The notes under the pieces are model-generated. The model ran no database searches, was not told where the DNA came from, and saw nothing but the letters and a program-made list of their open reading frames with translations. Source: Acidobacteriota bacterium (GTDB lineage: Bacteria > Acidobacteriota > Terriglobia > Bryobacterales > Bryobacteraceae). Taken from it: a stretch of 64,000 nt of DNA. Position 1 is the stretch's first letter. Each line of letters begins with the position of its first letter. The position numbers and the translations under genes are program-made. This document shows, piece after piece, positions 54,168 to 61,883 of the stretch. The stretch lies in NCBI GenBank assembly GCA_005808475.1, contig SYLY01000159.1, positions 1 to 64,000 on the forward strand, in the 5' to 3' direction.

Positions 54168-54230
54168 ATGAAGATCCAGGTCTCGATCGCCGCCTTTGCG
54201 CAGGAATACCGTGCCTCGATCAAGAGGTGA
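54168..54230 (+). CDS. Possible 20-residue leader ORF
   Basis: ATG 54168 has GAGGTG five bases upstream and opens a 20-codon frame (KIQVSIAAFAQEYRASIKR) ending in TGA at 54228-54230. Its last codons contain the AGAGGTGA ribosome site for the membrane protein that starts 7 bases after the stop, so translation of one could control the other. It may instead be the remnant 5' end of a lost gene. Confidence 0.4.
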   Translation: MKIQVSIAAFAQEYRASIKR

Positions 54231-54237
54231 TCTCCAC

Positions 54238-55758
54238 GTGCCCCCCCTGGTTCTGCTCACCGCGCTCTCGATGGCCTTCGGTTGGCGAATTCGCGGACAG
54301 TTCGGTCATGAAGCGGGAGCGGCCATCGCGGGCGCGCTCGGCGCGATGGCGATCGCGCTGCTCTCCGGCCGCCAGGATTGGCAACGCCGCGTGCACTACT
54401 TCGCGCTGCTCGGCGCGTTGGGATGGTCTTTCGGCGGCAGCATCTCCTACATGAAGGTGATCGGCTACACGCACTCGTCGGACTCGGCGACGGTCCTCTA
54501 CGGATTCGCGGGCGTGTTCCTGATCGGATTCCTCTGGGCCGGACTCGGTGGCGCGGGGACGGCGCTGGCCGCTGTGCTCGATCAAGAGAAATTGCGAGAT
54601 GTAGTGCGCGCCGCGGCCGTGGTCATGGGAGCGTGGTTCGTCGAGGACGTGTTCGTGGATGCCGTTCGCGCCCACGGCGGCCGGTCGTGGAACTGGTTCG
54701 ACAGCGACTGGATGGGCGCGACGTCCGCCGCGCTGGCGGTGTCGATTCTCGCTCTCGGCCGGCGCCGCATCGACTTCGGTGTTTCCCTCGTTCTCCATCT
54801 TGCCGCGGGCTGGTGGATCGCGTTCGGCCTACTGGTTCCGATCCTCGGACTTCACCTCAATCCTCCGCGTGGCGACAACTGGGCTGGCGTTCTCGGACTC
54901 TTCGGCGGTTGGGTGGTCTTCAGCAGGCGGCGGCGTCTGGATGAAGCCGCGCGTTCGGCGATGCTTTGCGCGATCCTCGGTGGCGCGGGATTTTGCCTGG
55001 GGCAGACGCTCAAGCTCGTCTGGATCGCCACCGGTGTGCAATGGGGATGGCACGCCACCATGGAGTGGTTCCACGGTCTCTTTCATGGCGTTGCTCTCGC
55101 GATCGCCATGGCTCCGCTGCTTCGCGGCGGCAGCGTCTCCTGGACCGCCATGCCGCGGATGGAGGTTTTTGCAGTGCTCTTCGTCGTGTGGGTAATCCCG
55201 TATCTGAACTTCCGCCGCACGCCGCCGATCTGGCTCAAACACGTCAAATCGCTTCCAGCGGCGTTCCATGGCCTCTATCTTTCCTCGAACTTCCTCCCAT
55301 CGCGAGGATGGCTGGGCTGGATCGAAATCGGCTTTGTCGCGGCCGGCGCGATCGCCGCGGCTCTGCTGGTGCGCCACACCCGCCAATCCCTGGCGCCGTT
55401 GTCCGGATCGTGGGAGAGCAGAGGGCAACTGCTCTACCTGACGTTGCTGTGGACCATGTTCGTGATCAGCACGGTACACGAGACGGCGATGCTGGAACCG
55501 ATGGTCCTGGTGATGCAGATGGGCGTGGGTCTGACGGGAGCTATCTGCATGTGGCTGCTTCTCGCATCCCCGCCCGTTCGATCCACCGCCGTCCCTGCTT
55601 GGCCCAGCCGCATACTGGCGATCGGCCTGGCCGCCGCGATCGTCGCGCCCGTGGCCGGCTGGACCGTCAAGCGCGCCCTTTACGGCGACAAGTTCGGAGG
55701 CTACTTCTACATGAACCACATTCGGTTCGGTCCGAACAATACCAACGACAAACGCTGA
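54238..55758 (+). CDS. Polytopic inner-membrane protein of unknown function
   Basis: 506 residues from GTG 54238, chosen because AGAGGTGA lies 9 bases upstream; a start at 54196 has no such site. About 12 membrane segments. Distinctive motifs are FGWRIRGQFGHEAGA near the N-terminus, GWSFGGSISYMKVIGYTHSSD, WFVEDVFVDA and HGLYLSSNFLP. I do not recognise the family; it lacks transporter signatures known to me. The charged residues inside membrane segments (Arg, His and Glu in the first motif) suggest a transport or enzymatic role. Confidence 0.75.
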   Translation: MPPLVLLTALSMAFGWRIRGQFGHEAGAAIAGALGAMAIALLSGRQDWQRRVHYFALLGALGWSFGGSISYMKVIGYTHSSDSATVLYGFAGVFLIGFLWAGLGGAGTALAAVLDQEKLRDVVRAAAVVMGAWFVEDVFVDAVRAHGGRSWNWFDSDWMGATSAALAVSILALGRRRIDFGVSLVLHLAAGWWIAFGLLVPILGLHLNPPRGDNWAGVLGLFGGWVVFSRRRRLDEAARSAMLCAILGGAGFCLGQTLKLVWIATGVQWGWHATMEWFHGLFHGVALAIAMAPLLRGGSVSWTAMPRMEVFAVLFVVWVIPYLNFRRTPPIWLKHVKSLPAAFHGLYLSSNFLPSRGWLGWIEIGFVAAGAIAAALLVRHTRQSLAPLSGSWESRGQLLYLTLLWTMFVISTVHETAMLEPMVLVMQMGVGLTGAICMWLLLASPPVRSTAVPAWPSRILAIGLAAAIVAPVAGWTVKRALYGDKFGGYFYMNHIRFGPNNTNDKR

Positions 55759-55771
55759 CGAGCCCGGGCCG

Positions 55772-56551
55772 CTACGCCGCGCGCAGGCGTCCCGCCCCAT
55801 AACCGGCGGCCAGGGAAATAAGGATCGTTGCGCCATGCCACACCAGCAGGTGGACTGCCTCGAGGTCGGGGCACGACACCTGCAGCGCGAGCATCGCGAC
55901 CGCCGAGGAGAACGCGGCGGTCAAGACGCCGGTGCGAGCGCCGTTCGTCGAGTACCCCAGCCGGGCGAATGCGTACGACGCGCCGGCGGCCATTGCCGAG
56001 AGCACAGCTCCGGCGATCAGGCATCCCTGGCCATCCGCCACGAAATCGCCGGTTGGCGCGAACGGAAACAGAGACGCCACGATTGCCGGAAATCCAACCG
56101 CGATGAGCGCCACCGGCGCTAGCGGCGCGACTCGCCGCCGGCTGCCCGGGCGGATCGATTCATGGAGACTCGCCGCCGCGGCCAGGATCGCGGCAAGGAA
56201 CAGCGCGCCCAGCAGCAACGGTTGCGCGCCGGTCAGAGCGTTCCAGCCGCGAACGCCAACGCCCCAGGCGCTCAGGCCGCCAATGATCGCCGCAACGCAG
56301 CAAGCGCCGGCCGCAGCCACCCAAACTGGCGGCACAGGCGCGACCGGCTTCAGGTCCGCGTGCAACATCGCGCGGATGCGCTCCGCGGCGCGCTCGTCCT
56401 CGCGCGGGACCGGCAGTGGGGCGAGACTCCAGGAAAGCAGGGCGGCGCAGCGGGGACAAGTGTCCATGTGCCCGCGCACTTCGGGGCGCGCGCGGAACTC
56501 CGCGGGCTCGATTCCCTCGCCGAGCAACAGGTCAACGTCCGCGCACTTCAT
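55772..56551 (-). CDS. NrsF-like (DUF1109) membrane anti-sigma factor with zinc-finger-like N-terminus
   Basis: 259 residues from ATG 56551, overlapping the sigma gene stop by 4 bases. Residues about 30-40 contain GHMDTCPRC, the His-x3-Cys-x2-Cys of zinc-finger anti-sigma factors. Six hydrophobic segments follow from about residue 78. The last part, LQVSCPDLEAVHLLVWHGAT, resembles the closing Cys-Pro and Trp-His region of DUF1109 proteins such as NrsF, the metal-responsive anti-sigma factor of Caulobacter sigma-F. That match is from memory. It would hold the sigma factor at the membrane until metal stress. Confidence 0.75.
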   Translation of the reverse strand: MKCADVDLLLGEGIEPAEFRARPEVRGHMDTCPRCAALLSWSLAPLPVPREDERAAERIRAMLHADLKPVAPVPPVWVAAAGACCVAAIIGGLSAWGVGVRGWNALTGAQPLLLGALFLAAILAAAASLHESIRPGSRRRVAPLAPVALIAVGFPAIVASLFPFAPTGDFVADGQGCLIAGAVLSAMAAGASYAFARLGYSTNGARTGVLTAAFSSAVAMLALQVSCPDLEAVHLLVWHGATILISLAAGYGAGRLRAA

Positions 56552-57159
56552 CCGCTTCCTTCTCCCCGGTCGTTTTTCAATCCGAGCGCCCGCCGGACCG
56601 CTTGGTAGGCGCGGTACGCCTTCTGCTTGACGGCGGGCGCGGTGGACTCGGTTGCGCGGGCCACGTCCTCCACGCTCATGCCTCCCACCTTCAGCATGAT
56701 CAACACCTCGCGCTGTCCCTCTGGCAATCCGTCCATCAGCGCCAGAATCTGGTCCGCGCGCAGCCGGTTTTCGATTGGAACGCGCGGGTCGGCCGACGGG
56801 TGTTCGGCCATGAGGTCGATGTTGGACTCGCGGCCAGACGAACGCTGCCAGCGGCGGTACTGATCCACCCTGGTATGCCGGGCGATCGCCAGCACCCACG
56901 GCAGCACCGGCTCGCCGGGCCGGTAGCTGCGCCTCGCCCGATGCAAGCGCAGCCAGCACTCCTGCAGCAAATCGTCGACCGGCCCGGTGCTTCCCCCAAG
57001 GGCATAAAAGTAGCGCGACAAGACCGGGTTCAGCAGGCGCACCAGTTCGTCCGCGGCGCCGGCATCGGCTTGCTGATAACGAACCATCAACGTCAGTAGC
57101 TCTTGCTGGAAGAGCCCGGTGTCCGGCCGCGATTCCCGCGCGCGGTCCGTTGAGGGCAT
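56548..57159 (-). CDS. ECF RNA polymerase sigma factor
   Basis: 203 residues from ATG 57159. Region 2: YFYALGGSTGPVDDLLQECWLRLHRARRSY, shown here in part as PVDDLLQECWLRLH, followed by PWVLAIARHTRVDQYRRW; region 4: LPEGQREVLIMLKVGGMSVEDVARATE, where the VEDVAR helix begins the -35 recognition helix-turn-helix. Overlaps the anti-sigma gene (ATGA). It lies 64 bases downstream of the membrane Fe-S gene and may be co-transcribed with it. The two GTTACC-N16-CGAA promoters at 59623-59699 are the likely targets. Confidence 0.9.
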   Translation of the reverse strand: MPSTDRARESRPDTGLFQQELLTLMVRYQQADAGAADELVRLLNPVLSRYFYALGGSTGPVDDLLQECWLRLHRARRSYRPGEPVLPWVLAIARHTRVDQYRRWQRSSGRESNIDLMAEHPSADPRVPIENRLRADQILALMDGLPEGQREVLIMLKVGGMSVEDVARATESTAPAVKQKAYRAYQAVRRALGLKNDRGEGSG

Positions 57160-57223: not shown

Positions 57224-58315
57224 TCATACCAGCCTCCGGTCCGCGCGAATGCCTTCGATCTGAACCAGGGCGGCCTGCTGGGGCGCCTGGGTCCGCACGT
57301 TTTCGAGCCGCAGGACGCCCCGCGGGCACACCTCCGCGCACAAGCCGCAACCGACGCAGGAGGCGCGCGTAAAGCTCTCGTTGGCCTGCGCGTAGGAACG
57401 GACGTCGATGCCCATCTCGCAGTACTTGGAGCACATGCCGCAAGAGATGCACATGTTCTCCTTCACCGCGATCCGGTACCGGCCCACCTTCTGGACCAGG
57501 CCGAGCAACGCCGCCATCGGGCAGAAGAAACGGCACCAGACGCGAGTGCCGCCCAACGGGTAGAGTCCGACGCCGACAACGCCGGCGAGCATCGAAGACA
57601 CCATCAGGCCGTAGAAGGACTGGAAGCCCGCCGTCCACTGGACGATGGCCGGATTCGTCTTGCCGGCTCCCCAACTGATGAAGAGCATCGCCGTGAGGAG
57701 TAGACTCGCGCCCAACACCGCATGGACGGTCACCCGTTCGATTCGCCACGAGGCATTCGACTTGTCCGACAGGTGCCGCCACGGCTCGCCGAAGGTGTTC
57801 GCCAGTCCGCCGCAGCCGCAGATCCAGGAGCAATACCAGCGCTTGCCGAAGAGCGCTCCCAGCAGCGGAACCAGCAGCGCGGAGCCGAGGAAGCTGTAAA
57901 GGATGTACGGTAGCGGGAGCGAGAAGATGTACGACGGGGTCAGGTAGTCCATCTTCAGCGGCCAAAAGTAGCTGAAGTAGTACTCCGGCTGATGCAGGAA
58001 CTTCAACATTTGCGGGATCGAGAACGCGAACACGGACTGGACGAAGATCACCACGCACGTGCGAATCACCTGGTAGCGGTTGTGCCGGTATTTGCGAATG
58101 ACGTGCACGCCACCCGCCGTCACCGCCAACGTGTAGAGGAGCCCGTACAGCGTCCACTTGCTTTCGAGCCCGATCATCCGCGCGGGGACGGCGAGCCATT
58201 CGGTGAAGTAAAGGACCAGATAGAAGCCCGTGAGGATCGCGGCGAGCAGCCATGCCGAGATGCCGCGGTTCTTCACGTCATGCAAAAGCGAGTGAGCGGA
58301 GCCGGACTTGATCAT
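57224..58315 (-). CDS. NapH/CcoG-like membrane iron-sulfur protein
   Basis: 363 residues from ATG 58315, with AGGAGGG upstream. Five or six membrane helices carry two Cys motifs of the 12-cluster type (WYCSWICGCGG and VWCRFFCPMA), and the cytoplasmic C-terminus has two 4Fe-4S motifs (CISCGMCSKYC and CVGCGLCAEVC). This is the polyferredoxin architecture of NapH, NosR and YccM, which pass electrons between quinones or NAD(P)H and periplasmic or membrane targets. It overlaps the FAD oxidoreductase gene by 4 bases, so the two probably form one electron-transfer unit. Confidence 0.85.
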   Translation of the reverse strand: MIKSGSAHSLLHDVKNRGISAWLLAAILTGFYLVLYFTEWLAVPARMIGLESKWTLYGLLYTLAVTAGGVHVIRKYRHNRYQVIRTCVVIFVQSVFAFSIPQMLKFLHQPEYYFSYFWPLKMDYLTPSYIFSLPLPYILYSFLGSALLVPLLGALFGKRWYCSWICGCGGLANTFGEPWRHLSDKSNASWRIERVTVHAVLGASLLLTAMLFISWGAGKTNPAIVQWTAGFQSFYGLMVSSMLAGVVGVGLYPLGGTRVWCRFFCPMAALLGLVQKVGRYRIAVKENMCISCGMCSKYCEMGIDVRSYAQANESFTRASCVGCGLCAEVCPRGVLRLENVRTQAPQQAALVQIEGIRADRRLV

Positions 58316-59601
58316 GCCGCCCTCCTTTCCGCGCTCTGGAACGCGGCGCGCACGCTCTCGAGAGCCAGCCTTCCGAACTCCACGTCGAACTGGGCCAGGT
58401 GTAGATTGGCCACGACATGGGCCATGGACCGCCGCTCGGCGATCCACTTCTCGAACCACTTGTGGTTCCAGCGCGAGCCCAACAGATTGACGCCCACCAC
58501 GGCGCCCTCGTTTTCGACGATGCGAATGCTGGCGTCCTTTCCGGGAACGCGATGAAAAAAGGTCGTCGCTCCGGCGGGAGCCCGCGTCACTTCGCCGACG
58601 GTGGTGTACTCGATCTCGAAGAATTTGGCGCTGTTGTAGAACAGCGGCGGCCGGTAGGCGGCCGTGTCGCCGAGCATCGCTCGCGCGGCCGATTCGCCTT
58701 GCCGTTTGGCCGAGTACCAGATCTGCTCCAGCAGAGAGCCTCCGTCAGGTCTGGTGAACTCCGCGCAATCGCCGGCCGCCCAGACATCGGGCAGGGAAGC
58801 GCGGAAATCGTCCGCCACCTTGATTCCACGTCCCAGCGCCAGCCCTGGCGCGCCGCTCTTCAACCAATCGATGGCCGGCCGCACTCCGATGCACGTGCCG
58901 AGCAATTGACACGGAAACTCGACGCCCTTGTTCGTGCGGACCGACGATACGCGGCCGTCCGCGCCGGCGGTCACGCGATCCACCTCTTGTTCCAGATGAA
59001 GCCTCACGCCGCAATGGCGGATGTGATCGGAGACGATGGCGCCCTCCTCGCGGTTCAGTGCGACTGGCCAGTACCAGGAGTCGCGGACGAGGAAGTCGAC
59101 CTCTACTCCGTGATGCACCAGACACTCCACCAGTTCGACGCCGATCAACCCGCCTCCCGCCACGACGGCTTGGCGCGTGGATGGCGTCAGCCGCTCGCAG
59201 TCCGCCAGGTTTTGCAGGGAAACGAACTGCACCACGCCGTCGCGGACGGTGTCCAGTCCGGCCCAGGGCGCGCGGTTCGGGACCGATCCCCCCGCCAGCA
59301 GGAGCCGGTCATAGGCGATCTCGCGGCCATCGTCCAGCCGCACGATCTTGCGGTTCGCGTCCAGTCCGGCGGCCCAGCCGCGGATGCGCTCGATGCGTTG
59401 CGCGTCGTAGCTCTTTCGCTCGTAGGGCTCGAGGTCCCGCGGATTCATCCGGTCCATGAACGCGTACATGAGCGCGGTCCGCGAGAAGAAGTAGTCGCTT
59501 TCGCCGCCGATCACGGAGATCCGCGCGTGGCGGTCCCGTTCGCGGATCTTTAGCGCGGCCGTGATGCCGGCCACACCGTTGCCAATCATGACGTAGTGCA
59601 T
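58312..59601 (-). CDS. FAD-dependent pyridine-nucleotide oxidoreductase
   Basis: 429 residues from ATG 59601, GAGAGGA upstream. FAD-binding IGNGVAGITAALKIRERD at the extreme N-terminus, NAD(P)-binding VVAGGGLIGVELVECLVHHG near 155, and the second FAD motif DVWAAGDCAEF near 280. It resembles the NirB/rubredoxin-reductase group; there is no CxxxxC redox pair. Its start codon faces one of the two divergent GTTACC-type promoters, and it is followed by the membrane Fe-S gene. Likely supplies electrons from NAD(P)H to that protein. Confidence 0.88.
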   Translation of the reverse strand: MHYVMIGNGVAGITAALKIRERDRHARISVIGGESDYFFSRTALMYAFMDRMNPRDLEPYERKSYDAQRIERIRGWAAGLDANRKIVRLDDGREIAYDRLLLAGGSVPNRAPWAGLDTVRDGVVQFVSLQNLADCERLTPSTRQAVVAGGGLIGVELVECLVHHGVEVDFLVRDSWYWPVALNREEGAIVSDHIRHCGVRLHLEQEVDRVTAGADGRVSSVRTNKGVEFPCQLLGTCIGVRPAIDWLKSGAPGLALGRGIKVADDFRASLPDVWAAGDCAEFTRPDGGSLLEQIWYSAKRQGESAARAMLGDTAAYRPPLFYNSAKFFEIEYTTVGEVTRAPAGATTFFHRVPGKDASIRIVENEGAVVGVNLLGSRWNHKWFEKWIAERRSMAHVVANLHLAQFDVEFGRLALESVRAAFQSAERRAA

Positions 59602-59622: not shown

Positions 59623-59648
59623 TTCGCGGCCAGCCGCATTTCGGTAAC
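59623..59648 (-). promoter_or_regulatory. ECF-type promoter GTTACC-N16-CGAA toward the redox/sigma operon
   Basis: On the minus strand GTTACC (59648-59643), 16 bases, then CGAA (59626-59623), 22 bases before ATG 59601. It matches the divergent copy at 59674 exactly in both boxes and spacing, and is one mismatch from the GTAACC-N16-CGAA consensus I recall for Caulobacter sigma-F. Confidence 0.7.
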
Positions 59649-59673
59649 GGGCTAATTTTCCTCGATTTTTCGC

Positions 59674-59699
59674 GTTACCGAATCCCGGACGGCGGCGAA
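59674..59699 (+). promoter_or_regulatory. ECF-type promoter GTTACC-N16-CGAA toward the bufferin operon
   Basis: GTTACC (59674-59679), 16 bases, CGAA (59696-59699), 77 bases before the precursor ATG 59776. The -35 boxes of this and the minus-strand promoter form a perfect 10-bp inverted repeat (TTCGGTAACG 59640-59649, CGTTACCGAA 59673-59682). Confidence 0.72.
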
Positions 59700-59775: not shown

Positions 59776-60147
59776 ATGACACGACGCACATTCGGCGGCC
59801 GCCTGGGCGCCGCCGTGGCCGGCATCGGCGCGGCCGCTGCCGCCTCCCACCTGATGGCCGCCGACAAGAAGGCCAAGCACGTATGTAAAGGAATGAACGA
59901 CTGCAAGGGTCAAGGCGGCGGACCCAAGGGAGTGGCCGGCAAGAACTCGTGCAAAGGCAAGGGCGAATGCGCCACCGTCTCCAAGCACGACTGCAAGGGC
60001 ATGAACGACTGCAAAGGATATGGCGGCTGCAAGACCGGCGACAACGGATGCGCGGGGAAGAACTCCTGCAAGGGCCACGGCGGATGCCAGGTGCCGATGA
60101 AGGCCAAGACGTCGCGCCTGCGAGAGCGCGCCGTGCAATCGGCCTAG
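59776..60147 (+). CDS. bufA: Cys-rich bufferin-type RiPP precursor with Tat-like leader
   Basis: 123 residues from ATG 59776 with AAAGGAG upstream. N-terminus [19 protein letters not shown] ends in a MAA cleavage region; the twin arginines suggest Tat. The mature part has ten Cys in two related units: [12 protein letters not shown] plus [10 protein letters not shown], then [13 protein letters not shown] plus [15 protein letters not shown]. CKGxGGC repeats next to DUF692 and DUF2063 genes match bufferins (copper-sequestering periplasmic peptides whose Cys are oxidised by MNIO enzymes). I recall the low-complexity CKG type as the BufA2 class. First gene of the operon. Confidence 0.85.
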
Positions 60148-60205: not shown

Positions 60206-61057
60206 GTGGCGAATCGATGGAATCTGCCCGACCTGGGCTTCGGCGCCGGCCTGCGAACCGTGCACTTTCAGCACATCCTCGCCGAATGGCCCGCCGTGGA
60301 TTGGTTCGAAATCCTGTCCGAGAACTTCCTGGACACGGGTGGGCGGCCCGCCTACGTGCTGGACCTGACCGCCGAGCGCTATCCGGTGGCGATGCATGGT
60401 GTGTCGCTCTCGGTGGGGAGCACCGATCCGGTGAACTTCGAATATCTGCGGAAGCTGAAGGCGCTCGCCGGGCGCACCAAGGCGCGTTGGATCTCCGACC
60501 ACCTGTGCTGGACCGGCGTGGCCGGCATCAACACGCACGACCTGTTGCCGATGCCTTACACCGACGAGTCGCTGCGGCACGTGGCGGAGAGGGTGCGCAC
60601 GATCTCCGATTACCTGGAGCGCCCGTTGTTCCTCGAAAATCCATCCACCTATCTCGAGTTCGCCGAATCCACCTGGACCGAATGGGACTTCCTCGCCGAG
60701 TTGACTGGCCTGTCCGGCTGCGGGCTGCTCCTCGACGTCAACAACGTCTACGTCAGTTCGTTCAATCACGGCTTCGATCCCTTCGAATACGTGGACCGGA
60801 TTCCGGTGGACCGCGTCGTGCAGATCCACTTGGCCGGGCATACGCACAAAGGCACACACATTCTCGACACCCACAGCGACCACGTCGTGGATCCAGTCTG
60901 GGAGCTGTACCGCCGCGTGTACCAGCGAATGGGCGGAATCGCGACGCTGCTCGAATGGGACGACTCGATCCCCTCGTTCGACACGGTGCACGCCGAAGCA
61001 CTGAAGGCGCGATGGTATCGAACCATGCCGCAACAGGAGGCGCGAAGTGCGGCTTGA
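60206..61057 (+). CDS. bufB: DUF692 multinuclear iron oxidative enzyme (MNIO)
   Basis: 283 residues from GTG 60206 (AAGGAG upstream). The TIM barrel keeps the metal ligands of the family: GVSLSVGS preceded by His, [44 protein letters not shown] and EWDDSIPS. These enzymes use two or three irons and oxygen to remodel Cys in RiPP precursors, here presumably the CKGxGGC repeats of the upstream peptide. No leader, so modification happens in the cytoplasm before export. Overlaps the partner gene by 11 bases. Confidence 0.92.
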
Positions 61058-61883
61058 CGCAACCCGGCTCGGCAGCGTGCAGCACTGGATGCAATCCTAC
61101 ATCCGCGAGGGCGGCGCGGCCGCCGATGAAGCCGCCGCGCTGATTCGTCCATCCCGCGCGCTGGCGCCGCTGGAACGGCTCGACATCTACCGGGGCATGT
61201 ACGAACTGCGTTTGGTGGAAGCGCTGCGGGCCGACTATCCGGGGCTGGTGCGTTTGCTGGGAGAGGACCTGTTCGACGAACTGGCGCGATTGTACGTGGC
61301 GGCGCATCCGTCGCGAAGCTACACGCTGAACCGGCTCGGCGACCGGTTGCCCGAATACCTGGCGCGCGTGGAGGGTCTGCCGAAGCCCGGGTTTACGCGC
61401 GCCCTGGCCCGGTTGGAGCTCGCCGAGACGCTGGTTTTCGACGAAGAGGAGTCGCTGCACGCCTCCGCGGAGTTCTTGACCGGCGTGCCCGCGGACCAGT
61501 GGAGCGGGCTGCGTTTCCGGCCCATCTCCGCGCTCCGTTTGCTCCGTCTGGACTACCCCGCGCATCTGTTCGCCGATGCCGCGCTTCGGCCCAAGAAGAC
61601 GAGGCTGATCGTTTACCGCCGGGATTTCGCCGTGGCGAGCCTGTCCGTGAGCGAGCCCGCGATGGCGCTGTTCGAAGCGCTGGCCGAGGGGCGGCCGTTG
61701 AGCGATGCGGTGGAGCGGGCGGACCGGGCGAAGGAGAGCGAGATATTCGGCTGGTTCCGCGACTGGTTCAGCGAGGGCCTGTTTCAGAGCGTCGAGGCCG
61801 CGCAGCCGCCGCGCGCTTCCGCATCCCGGACTCGAACGACACGCGCGACACGGCCATCAGCCGCCGCAAATCCGGGTCCTTGA
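61047..61883 (+). CDS. bufC: DUF2063 partner protein of the MNIO enzyme
   Basis: 278 residues from GTG 61047. N-terminal DUF2063 domain: [20 protein letters not shown] and [20 protein letters not shown], then [15 protein letters not shown]; the C-terminal part is a wHTH-like segment ([18 protein letters not shown]). In MNIO systems this protein binds the precursor leader and presents it to the enzyme. The last 30 residues are Arg/Ala/Thr-rich and overlap the end of the minus-strand gene by 116 bases, so the natural end may have been extended. Confidence 0.88.

Follow-up and report, generated by a model that had tools for sequence, protein, structure and literature searches.

Divergent predicted NrsF-sigma promoters join a Buf2-type bufferin operon to a flavoprotein/Fe-S pair and sigma/anti-sigma genes in Acidobacteriota

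In Caulobacter crescentus, the ECF16 sigma factor SigF and its anti-sigma factor NrsF are encoded in one operon. Sigma-F recognizes the consensus GTAACC-N16-CGAA and controls the bufferin operons CC3254-3257 and CC2907-2905 (PMC3511200). Because CC2907-2905 depends on sigma-F, there is a precedent for sigma-F acting in trans on a second bufferin operon. In Sinorhizobium meliloti, the sigma/anti-sigma pair RpoE7-EcfR7 is encoded divergently from the DUF692/DUF2063 operon SMb20530-20527, and ECF16-type promoters containing GTAAC are located on both sides (PMC6180224). The plasmid pASTEX01 of Asticcacaulis excentricus (L371) encodes BufA2 (100 bits), BufB, BufC, a sigma factor, and two NrsF proteins, and contains divergent, outward-facing GTAACC-N16-CGTA boxes. 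The divergent arrangement of bufferin and sigma genes is therefore already known from Sinorhizobium (PMC6180224) and from the Asticcacaulis plasmid. Bufferin clusters of the Buf2 type encode a precursor with six or twelve cysteines, an MNIO enzyme, and a DUF2063 partner, and published bufferin precursors carry Sec signals (PMC12452194). According to a 2025 survey, sigma/anti-sigma (NrsF) genes are present in Buf1 but not in Buf2 clusters (PMC12452194).

The locus analysed here belongs to a 64-kb stretch of DNA from an acidobacterial soil bacterium, referred to as the window, and its features are listed in Table 1. It resembles the Caulobacter system in that the sigma factor and NrsF share an operon, a bufferin operon is under predicted sigma control, and two NrsF cysteines are 50 residues apart. 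The promoters share the N16 spacing and CGAA, but the third base of the -35 element differs (GTTACC in the window, GTAACC in Caulobacter). The window cluster also differs in that its sigma operon includes a flavoprotein/Fe-S pair and its NrsF has an N-terminal Cys-His-Cys-Cys motif, it lacks an MsrP-like or DoxX gene, and it comes from a different phylum. The redox pair is absent from the Sinorhizobium RpoE7 locus. In pASTEX01, a Buf1 bufferin cluster takes the place of the redox pair as the divergent operon, and NrsF lacks the N-terminal motif. What is new here is that such a cluster contains a Buf2-type bufferin, that the sigma operon includes the redox pair, that NrsF has a zinc-finger-like motif at its N-terminus, and that the precursors carry twin-arginine motifs. 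Exceptions to the reported absence of sigma genes from Buf2 clusters are the window cluster, three clusters of genus g5, several more distant ones, and that of the Asticcacaulis plasmid.

Table 1 Features of the divergent bufferin/sigma locus in the window
Feature	Position	Strand	Description
nrsF	55772..56551	-	Anti-sigma factor; PF06532 49.3 bits, cut-off 26.8
sig	56548..57159	-	ECF sigma factor, NrsF-linked type
FeS	57224..58315	-	NapH-like membrane protein; two [4Fe-4S]-type motifs
FAD	58312..59601	-	NAD(P)H-dependent flavoprotein (ferredoxin/rubredoxin reductase-like); PF07992 (Pyr_redox_2)
Leftward box	59623..59648	-	GTTACC-gaaatgcggctggccg-CGAA, read 59648-59623; predicted NrsF-sigma type promoter (-35 GTTACC, -10 CGAA); toward FAD-FeS-sig-nrsF
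Spacer between -35 boxes	59649..59673	none	25 bp, A+T-rich, 44% GC against 64% in the window
Rightward box	59674..59699	+	GTTACC-gaatcccggacggcgg-CGAA; predicted NrsF-sigma type promoter; toward bufA2-bufB-bufC
bufA2	59776..60147	+	Buf2-type precursor (duplicated 6-Cys), 123 aa; NF050166 48.4 bits, below cut-off 60
bufB	60206..61057	+	MNIO bufferin maturase; NF050167 352 bits, cut-off 310
bufC	61047..61883	+	DUF2063 partner; PF09836 78.6 bits, above cut-off

The intergenic gap that contains the boxes lies between 59602 and 59775. The CGAA of the leftward box is 21 nt from the start codon of FAD, and that of the rightward box is 76 nt from the start codon of bufA2. The first-pass annotation placed two outward GTTACC-N16-CGAA boxes at 59648-59623 and 59674-59699 and stated that the window contains no other such pair. 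The coordinates and the sequence were confirmed, and the window contains no further exact match, with 0.05 expected from shuffles. None of the shuffled windows yielded two exact boxes. When one mismatch was allowed, six matches were found in the window against 2.4 expected. The 7.9-Mb draft genome contains nine exact matches against seven for the reversed control, which is the background level for the bare pattern. Therefore, the evidence must come from the placement and conservation of the boxes. A larger regulon deduced from the whole-genome count of hexamer pairs was rejected because the count is at background. The degenerate pattern GTWACY-N16-CGAA occurs at 25 sites in the genome; the window pair alone is located in an evident gap between genes, and the other 23 sites are inside long open reading frames.

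Conservation of the boxes was analysed in 237 genomes of the acidobacterial family to which the window belongs. Related sigma genes are present in 80 genomes, related BufB in 53, and close FeS orthologues (at least 60% identity) in about 33. About 140 loci were retrieved, and the seven cluster genes were mapped on each of them. The dyad GTWAC-N17-CGAA, equivalent to GTWACN-N16-CGAA with the same spacing and a free sixth base, is located upstream of 38 of the 71 distinct related sigma genes, against an average of 0.17 for 720 permuted dyads. The runner-up dyad upstream of the sigma genes scored 7, and spacers of N15, N16, N18, and N19 scored zero. The other 33 sigma genes, some of which are operon-internal, lack a perfect box within 300 bp. 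The dyad also precedes FAD genes (8 of 26; permuted-dyad mean 0.04) and bufferin operons (12 of 58; permuted-dyad mean 0.36). The bufferin count is weak taken alone, because coding repeats of the precursor fall inside the scanned stretch and one permuted dyad reached 11. The search across related genomes that the first-pass annotation had proposed found this relaxed form of the motif in front of all three kinds of gene. The base preceding GTWAC is C in 54 of the 57 aligned sites, as it is at both window sites.

The seven-gene order of the window is present in four other genomes (G193, G150, G221, and G180, in which the contig terminates within the sigma gene). All four of these relatives retain the divergent box pair. 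When close bufferin operons, defined by a BufB identity of at least 70%, were compared, a box was found in 8 of 8 with sigma/NrsF genes nearby and in 1 of 13 without them (Fisher p 4e-5, to be taken as indicative since the sequences share ancestry). No box was found upstream of bufA2 in G001 and G002 from the same genus as the window. In genus g5, the two halves of the cluster are separate: a GTAACT box precedes FAD-FeS-sig-nrsF, and a GTTAC box precedes bufA2-B-C-sig-nrsF on another contig of the same genome. T occupies the third base of the -35 element in 9 of the 12 bufferin promoters against 3 of the 38 sigma promoters. Most sigma promoters of the family read GTAAC, and T at the third base is found mainly in bufferin promoters and in the close kin of the window.

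Several loci deviate from the window arrangement. The genome of the window (G000) contains a second bufferin operon, split over the ends of two contigs (C238, L084, and C383, L085), with a BufB about 80% identical and no box upstream. In one G001 locus (L086, contig C139), sig-nrsF is kept, FeS is reduced to its last third, FAD does not adjoin, and no box was found; the redox pair has apparently been lost. In G193 and G150, a gene for a lipoprotein-like protein of about 340 residues lies between the leftward box and FAD (L153 3959-5000, L154 8951-9976) and has no confident Pfam match.

It is highly probable that the gap contains two divergent promoters for a single ECF16/SigF-like sigma factor, which is encoded in the minus-strand operon that the promoters help to drive. 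This interpretation places presumed transcription starts and a presumed sigma specificity on boxes, spacing, conservation, gene content, and operon overlaps that are read directly from the sequence. The stop codon of FAD overlaps the start of FeS, the sigma and NrsF genes overlap, and the sigma gene starts 64 bases past the FeS stop codon. The leftward FAD-FeS-sig-nrsF stretch shows no promoter of the sigma-70-like kind, and the simplest reading is that the four genes form one operon. The ECF sigma gene and the NrsF-like anti-sigma gene that the first-pass annotation recognized in the minus-strand run were verified, the latter by its match to PF06532. The two redox genes that it assigned to the regulon indeed sit in the sigma operon. 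The Caulobacter consensus and the sigma-F control of bufferin-type operons, both cited in the first-pass annotation, were found in the literature (PMC3511200). The proposed autoregulation is well supported at the level of sequence, as the boxes are located upstream of sigma genes, are conserved, and co-vary with sigma linkage.

In the retrieved loci, the genes that directly follow a box are those for the sigma factor (31), BufA2 (11), a lactonase-like propeller (8), FAD (7), a SpoIIE-type phosphatase (4), peroxiredoxin (3), EthD (3), a CMD-fold protein (2), OsmC (1), and others. Judged from these genes, the regulon would be concerned with thiols and oxidants no less than with metals. The presumed inducer may be metal, as the first-pass annotation predicted, or oxidative/chlorine stress, which we regard as equally plausible. 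It is quite possible that the boxes are NrsF-sigma promoters but respond to oxidative or chlorine stress, so that the bufferin and the redox pair repair damage or scavenge oxidants, with copper secondary. The peroxiredoxin (AhpC-TSA), OsmC, CMD-fold, EthD, and lactonase-like genes behind family boxes fit such a signal. ECF16 systems elsewhere respond to hypochlorite or reactive oxygen, and their targets include methionine sulfoxide reductase and MXKDX genes (PMC8315932), and ECF16 systems with these genes are present in the plasmid loci L372 and L374. However, the window cluster contains no methionine sulfoxide reductase or peroxidase gene, and the Caulobacter sigma-F targets were induced by chromate and cadmium but not by generators of reactive oxygen (PMC3511200). 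Sinorhizobium RpoE7 and its divergent target responded to none of the stresses tried, which included H2O2, cadmium, and chromate (PMC6180224). The lactonase-like beta-propeller is predicted to be secreted, is found behind a box in eight loci (L088, L240, L245, L247, L248, L257, L258, and L261), and appears to be a frequent member of the regulon. In six loci (L075, L087, L186, L187, L188, and L190), the SpoIIE-type phosphatase gene is divergent from bufA2 or the sigma gene and lies behind one box of the pair; the phosphatase may provide a second regulatory layer.

The boxes are unlikely to be the binding site of a repressor or activator instead of promoter elements. GTTAC and GTAAC are reverse complements, the boxes are arranged as an imperfect inverted repeat, and about one third of the divergent pairs are separated by 23-25 bp, as might be expected of such a site. 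However, the gap can be as short as 1 bp or as long as 68 bp, whereas the N16 distance to the outward CGAA is constant, and many sigma genes are preceded by a single, non-divergent box. Because of this range, the 25-bp gap was rejected as a defining feature of the promoters. The A+T-rich spacer was likewise dismissed as a general upstream element, since it is seen in the window and G180 but is absent from G221 and G193.

We see a similarly small chance that another sigma factor of the cell uses the boxes and that the operon carries the local sigma gene merely as a passenger. The family has many ECF factors, and the expression of Caulobacter sigF is not wholly dependent on sigma-F (PMC3511200), but the presence of the box tracks linkage to an NrsF-type sigma gene, and the genome of the window (a draft, 77% complete) yielded a single NrsF gene. 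The window sigma factor groups with those of G150, G193, and G221 in the sigma tree with moderate support (94/69). A tblastn search of plasmids with NrsF gave no match at E 0.1, and the plasmid comparison was therefore queried with the sigma factor. Its best plasmid matches are proteobacterial sigma factors of about 30% identity, many of which adjoin NrsF genes. A chance pair of hexamers, for which the background frequency of the pattern in the whole genome might speak, is hardly credible given two perfect outward copies within one 100-bp gap and the conservation of the pair in four relatives despite diverged spacer sequence.

The nearest solved relatives of the flavoprotein are NADH-dependent subunits of the ferredoxin-reductase type, the best being chain E of 8c0z. 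The AlphaFold model of the FeS protein was set aside as too poor (pLDDT 48). FAD and FeS adjoin at 100 of the 111 loci compared, which come from Acidobacteriota, Myxococcota, Zixibacteria, Dadabacteria, Bacteroidota, and others. Across these phyla, no third gene recurs next to the pair from which its function could be named. Judged from this distribution, the pair is an ancient module for electron transfer, which some members of the family have brought under the sigma factor. The flavoprotein presumably hands electrons to the Fe-S protein.

The precursor BufA2 of the window has a duplicated repeat with ten cysteines. Its close homologues score 46-55 bits against NF050166, for which the cut-off is 60. 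The bufB and bufC genes adjoin, as in Buf2 clusters. We infer that the bufferin product carries modified cysteines and binds copper. The N-terminus of the window precursor (59776-59850) contains the twin-arginine motif TRRTF. The motif RRxF is present at the N-terminus of 18 of 18 homologues whose BufB falls in the same clade as that of the window (identity of at least 70%; L070-L075, L084, L153, L154, L156, L157, L186, L187, and L193-L197), and in none of the 27 distant precursors (BufB under 60%). The clade differs in this respect from the published precursors with Sec signals, and Tat export would allow the modification of the bufferin to be completed first.

The structure model of NrsF (pLDDT 92) contains six long helices past residue 73, in agreement with the six-helix membrane domain (DUF1109) of NrsF proteins. 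Cys177 and Cys227 of the window NrsF have the same spacing as the pairs C131/C181 of Caulobacter (PMC3511200) and C129/C179 of Brucella (PMC8315932), and 61 of 62 NrsF homologues of the family contain C-x49-C, two cysteines 50 residues apart. The longer motif C-x49-C-x6-H-x4-H is present in the membrane domain of 60 of the 62 and could be a metal site. This exact motif is missing from all six proteobacterial plasmid NrsF proteins, two of which have no second cysteine. The N-terminus of the window NrsF contains Cys-x(18-40)-His-x3-Cys-x2-Cys (C3, H28, C32, and C35), a motif found in 36 of the 62 family proteins and in 0 of the 6 plasmid proteins. It appears zinc-finger-like, as in zinc-binding anti-sigma domains. 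This is a claim at the level of the motif because zf-HC2 matches weakly (E 0.12, and E 0.0076 in a relative, both below cut-off). Motif invariance in alignment A3 was not counted as evidence, since the rows were picked for carrying the motif. The fold search with the NrsF model effectively covered residues 73-259 and produced no Foldseek match below E 0.5 and, in a second comparison, only matches with Z under 6; no claim is based on the fold. A plus-strand open reading frame for a membrane-like protein of 520 residues (54196-55758) faces the end of the nrsF operon and has no Pfam match at E 5.

Based on these features, a mechanism of regulation can be proposed. In the resting state, membrane-bound NrsF probably holds the sigma factor. 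Stress acting on the thiols of NrsF or on a bound metal may release the sigma factor, which would then initiate transcription in both directions from the GTTACC-N16-CGAA boxes. Rightward transcription would provide the Buf2-type precursor, the MNIO maturase, and the partner protein, and lead to a modified periplasmic copper chelator. Leftward transcription would provide the NAD(P)H flavoprotein, the membrane Fe-S protein, and more sigma factor and NrsF, which may close an autoregulatory loop limited by NrsF. We speculate further, with considerable doubt, that NrsF has two inputs, the cytoplasmic zinc-thiol motif and a possible copper site at C-x49-C-x6-H-x4-H. In the module that it governs, the flavoprotein and Fe-S protein would maintain copper or bufferin thiols in the reduced state by driving electrons through the membrane, and the Tat-exported, pre-modified bufferin would capture Cu(I).

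The boxes extend the promoter logic of SigF-NrsF to Acidobacteriota, with statistics from 237 genomes. The clusters described here are clear exceptions to the published claim that Buf2 clusters lack sigma/anti-sigma genes. The NrsF variant and the twin-arginine precursors bear on what NrsF senses and on how export of bufferin before its modification is avoided. A widespread and unexplained flavoprotein/Fe-S pair is now tied to bufferin biology, which makes its function testable.
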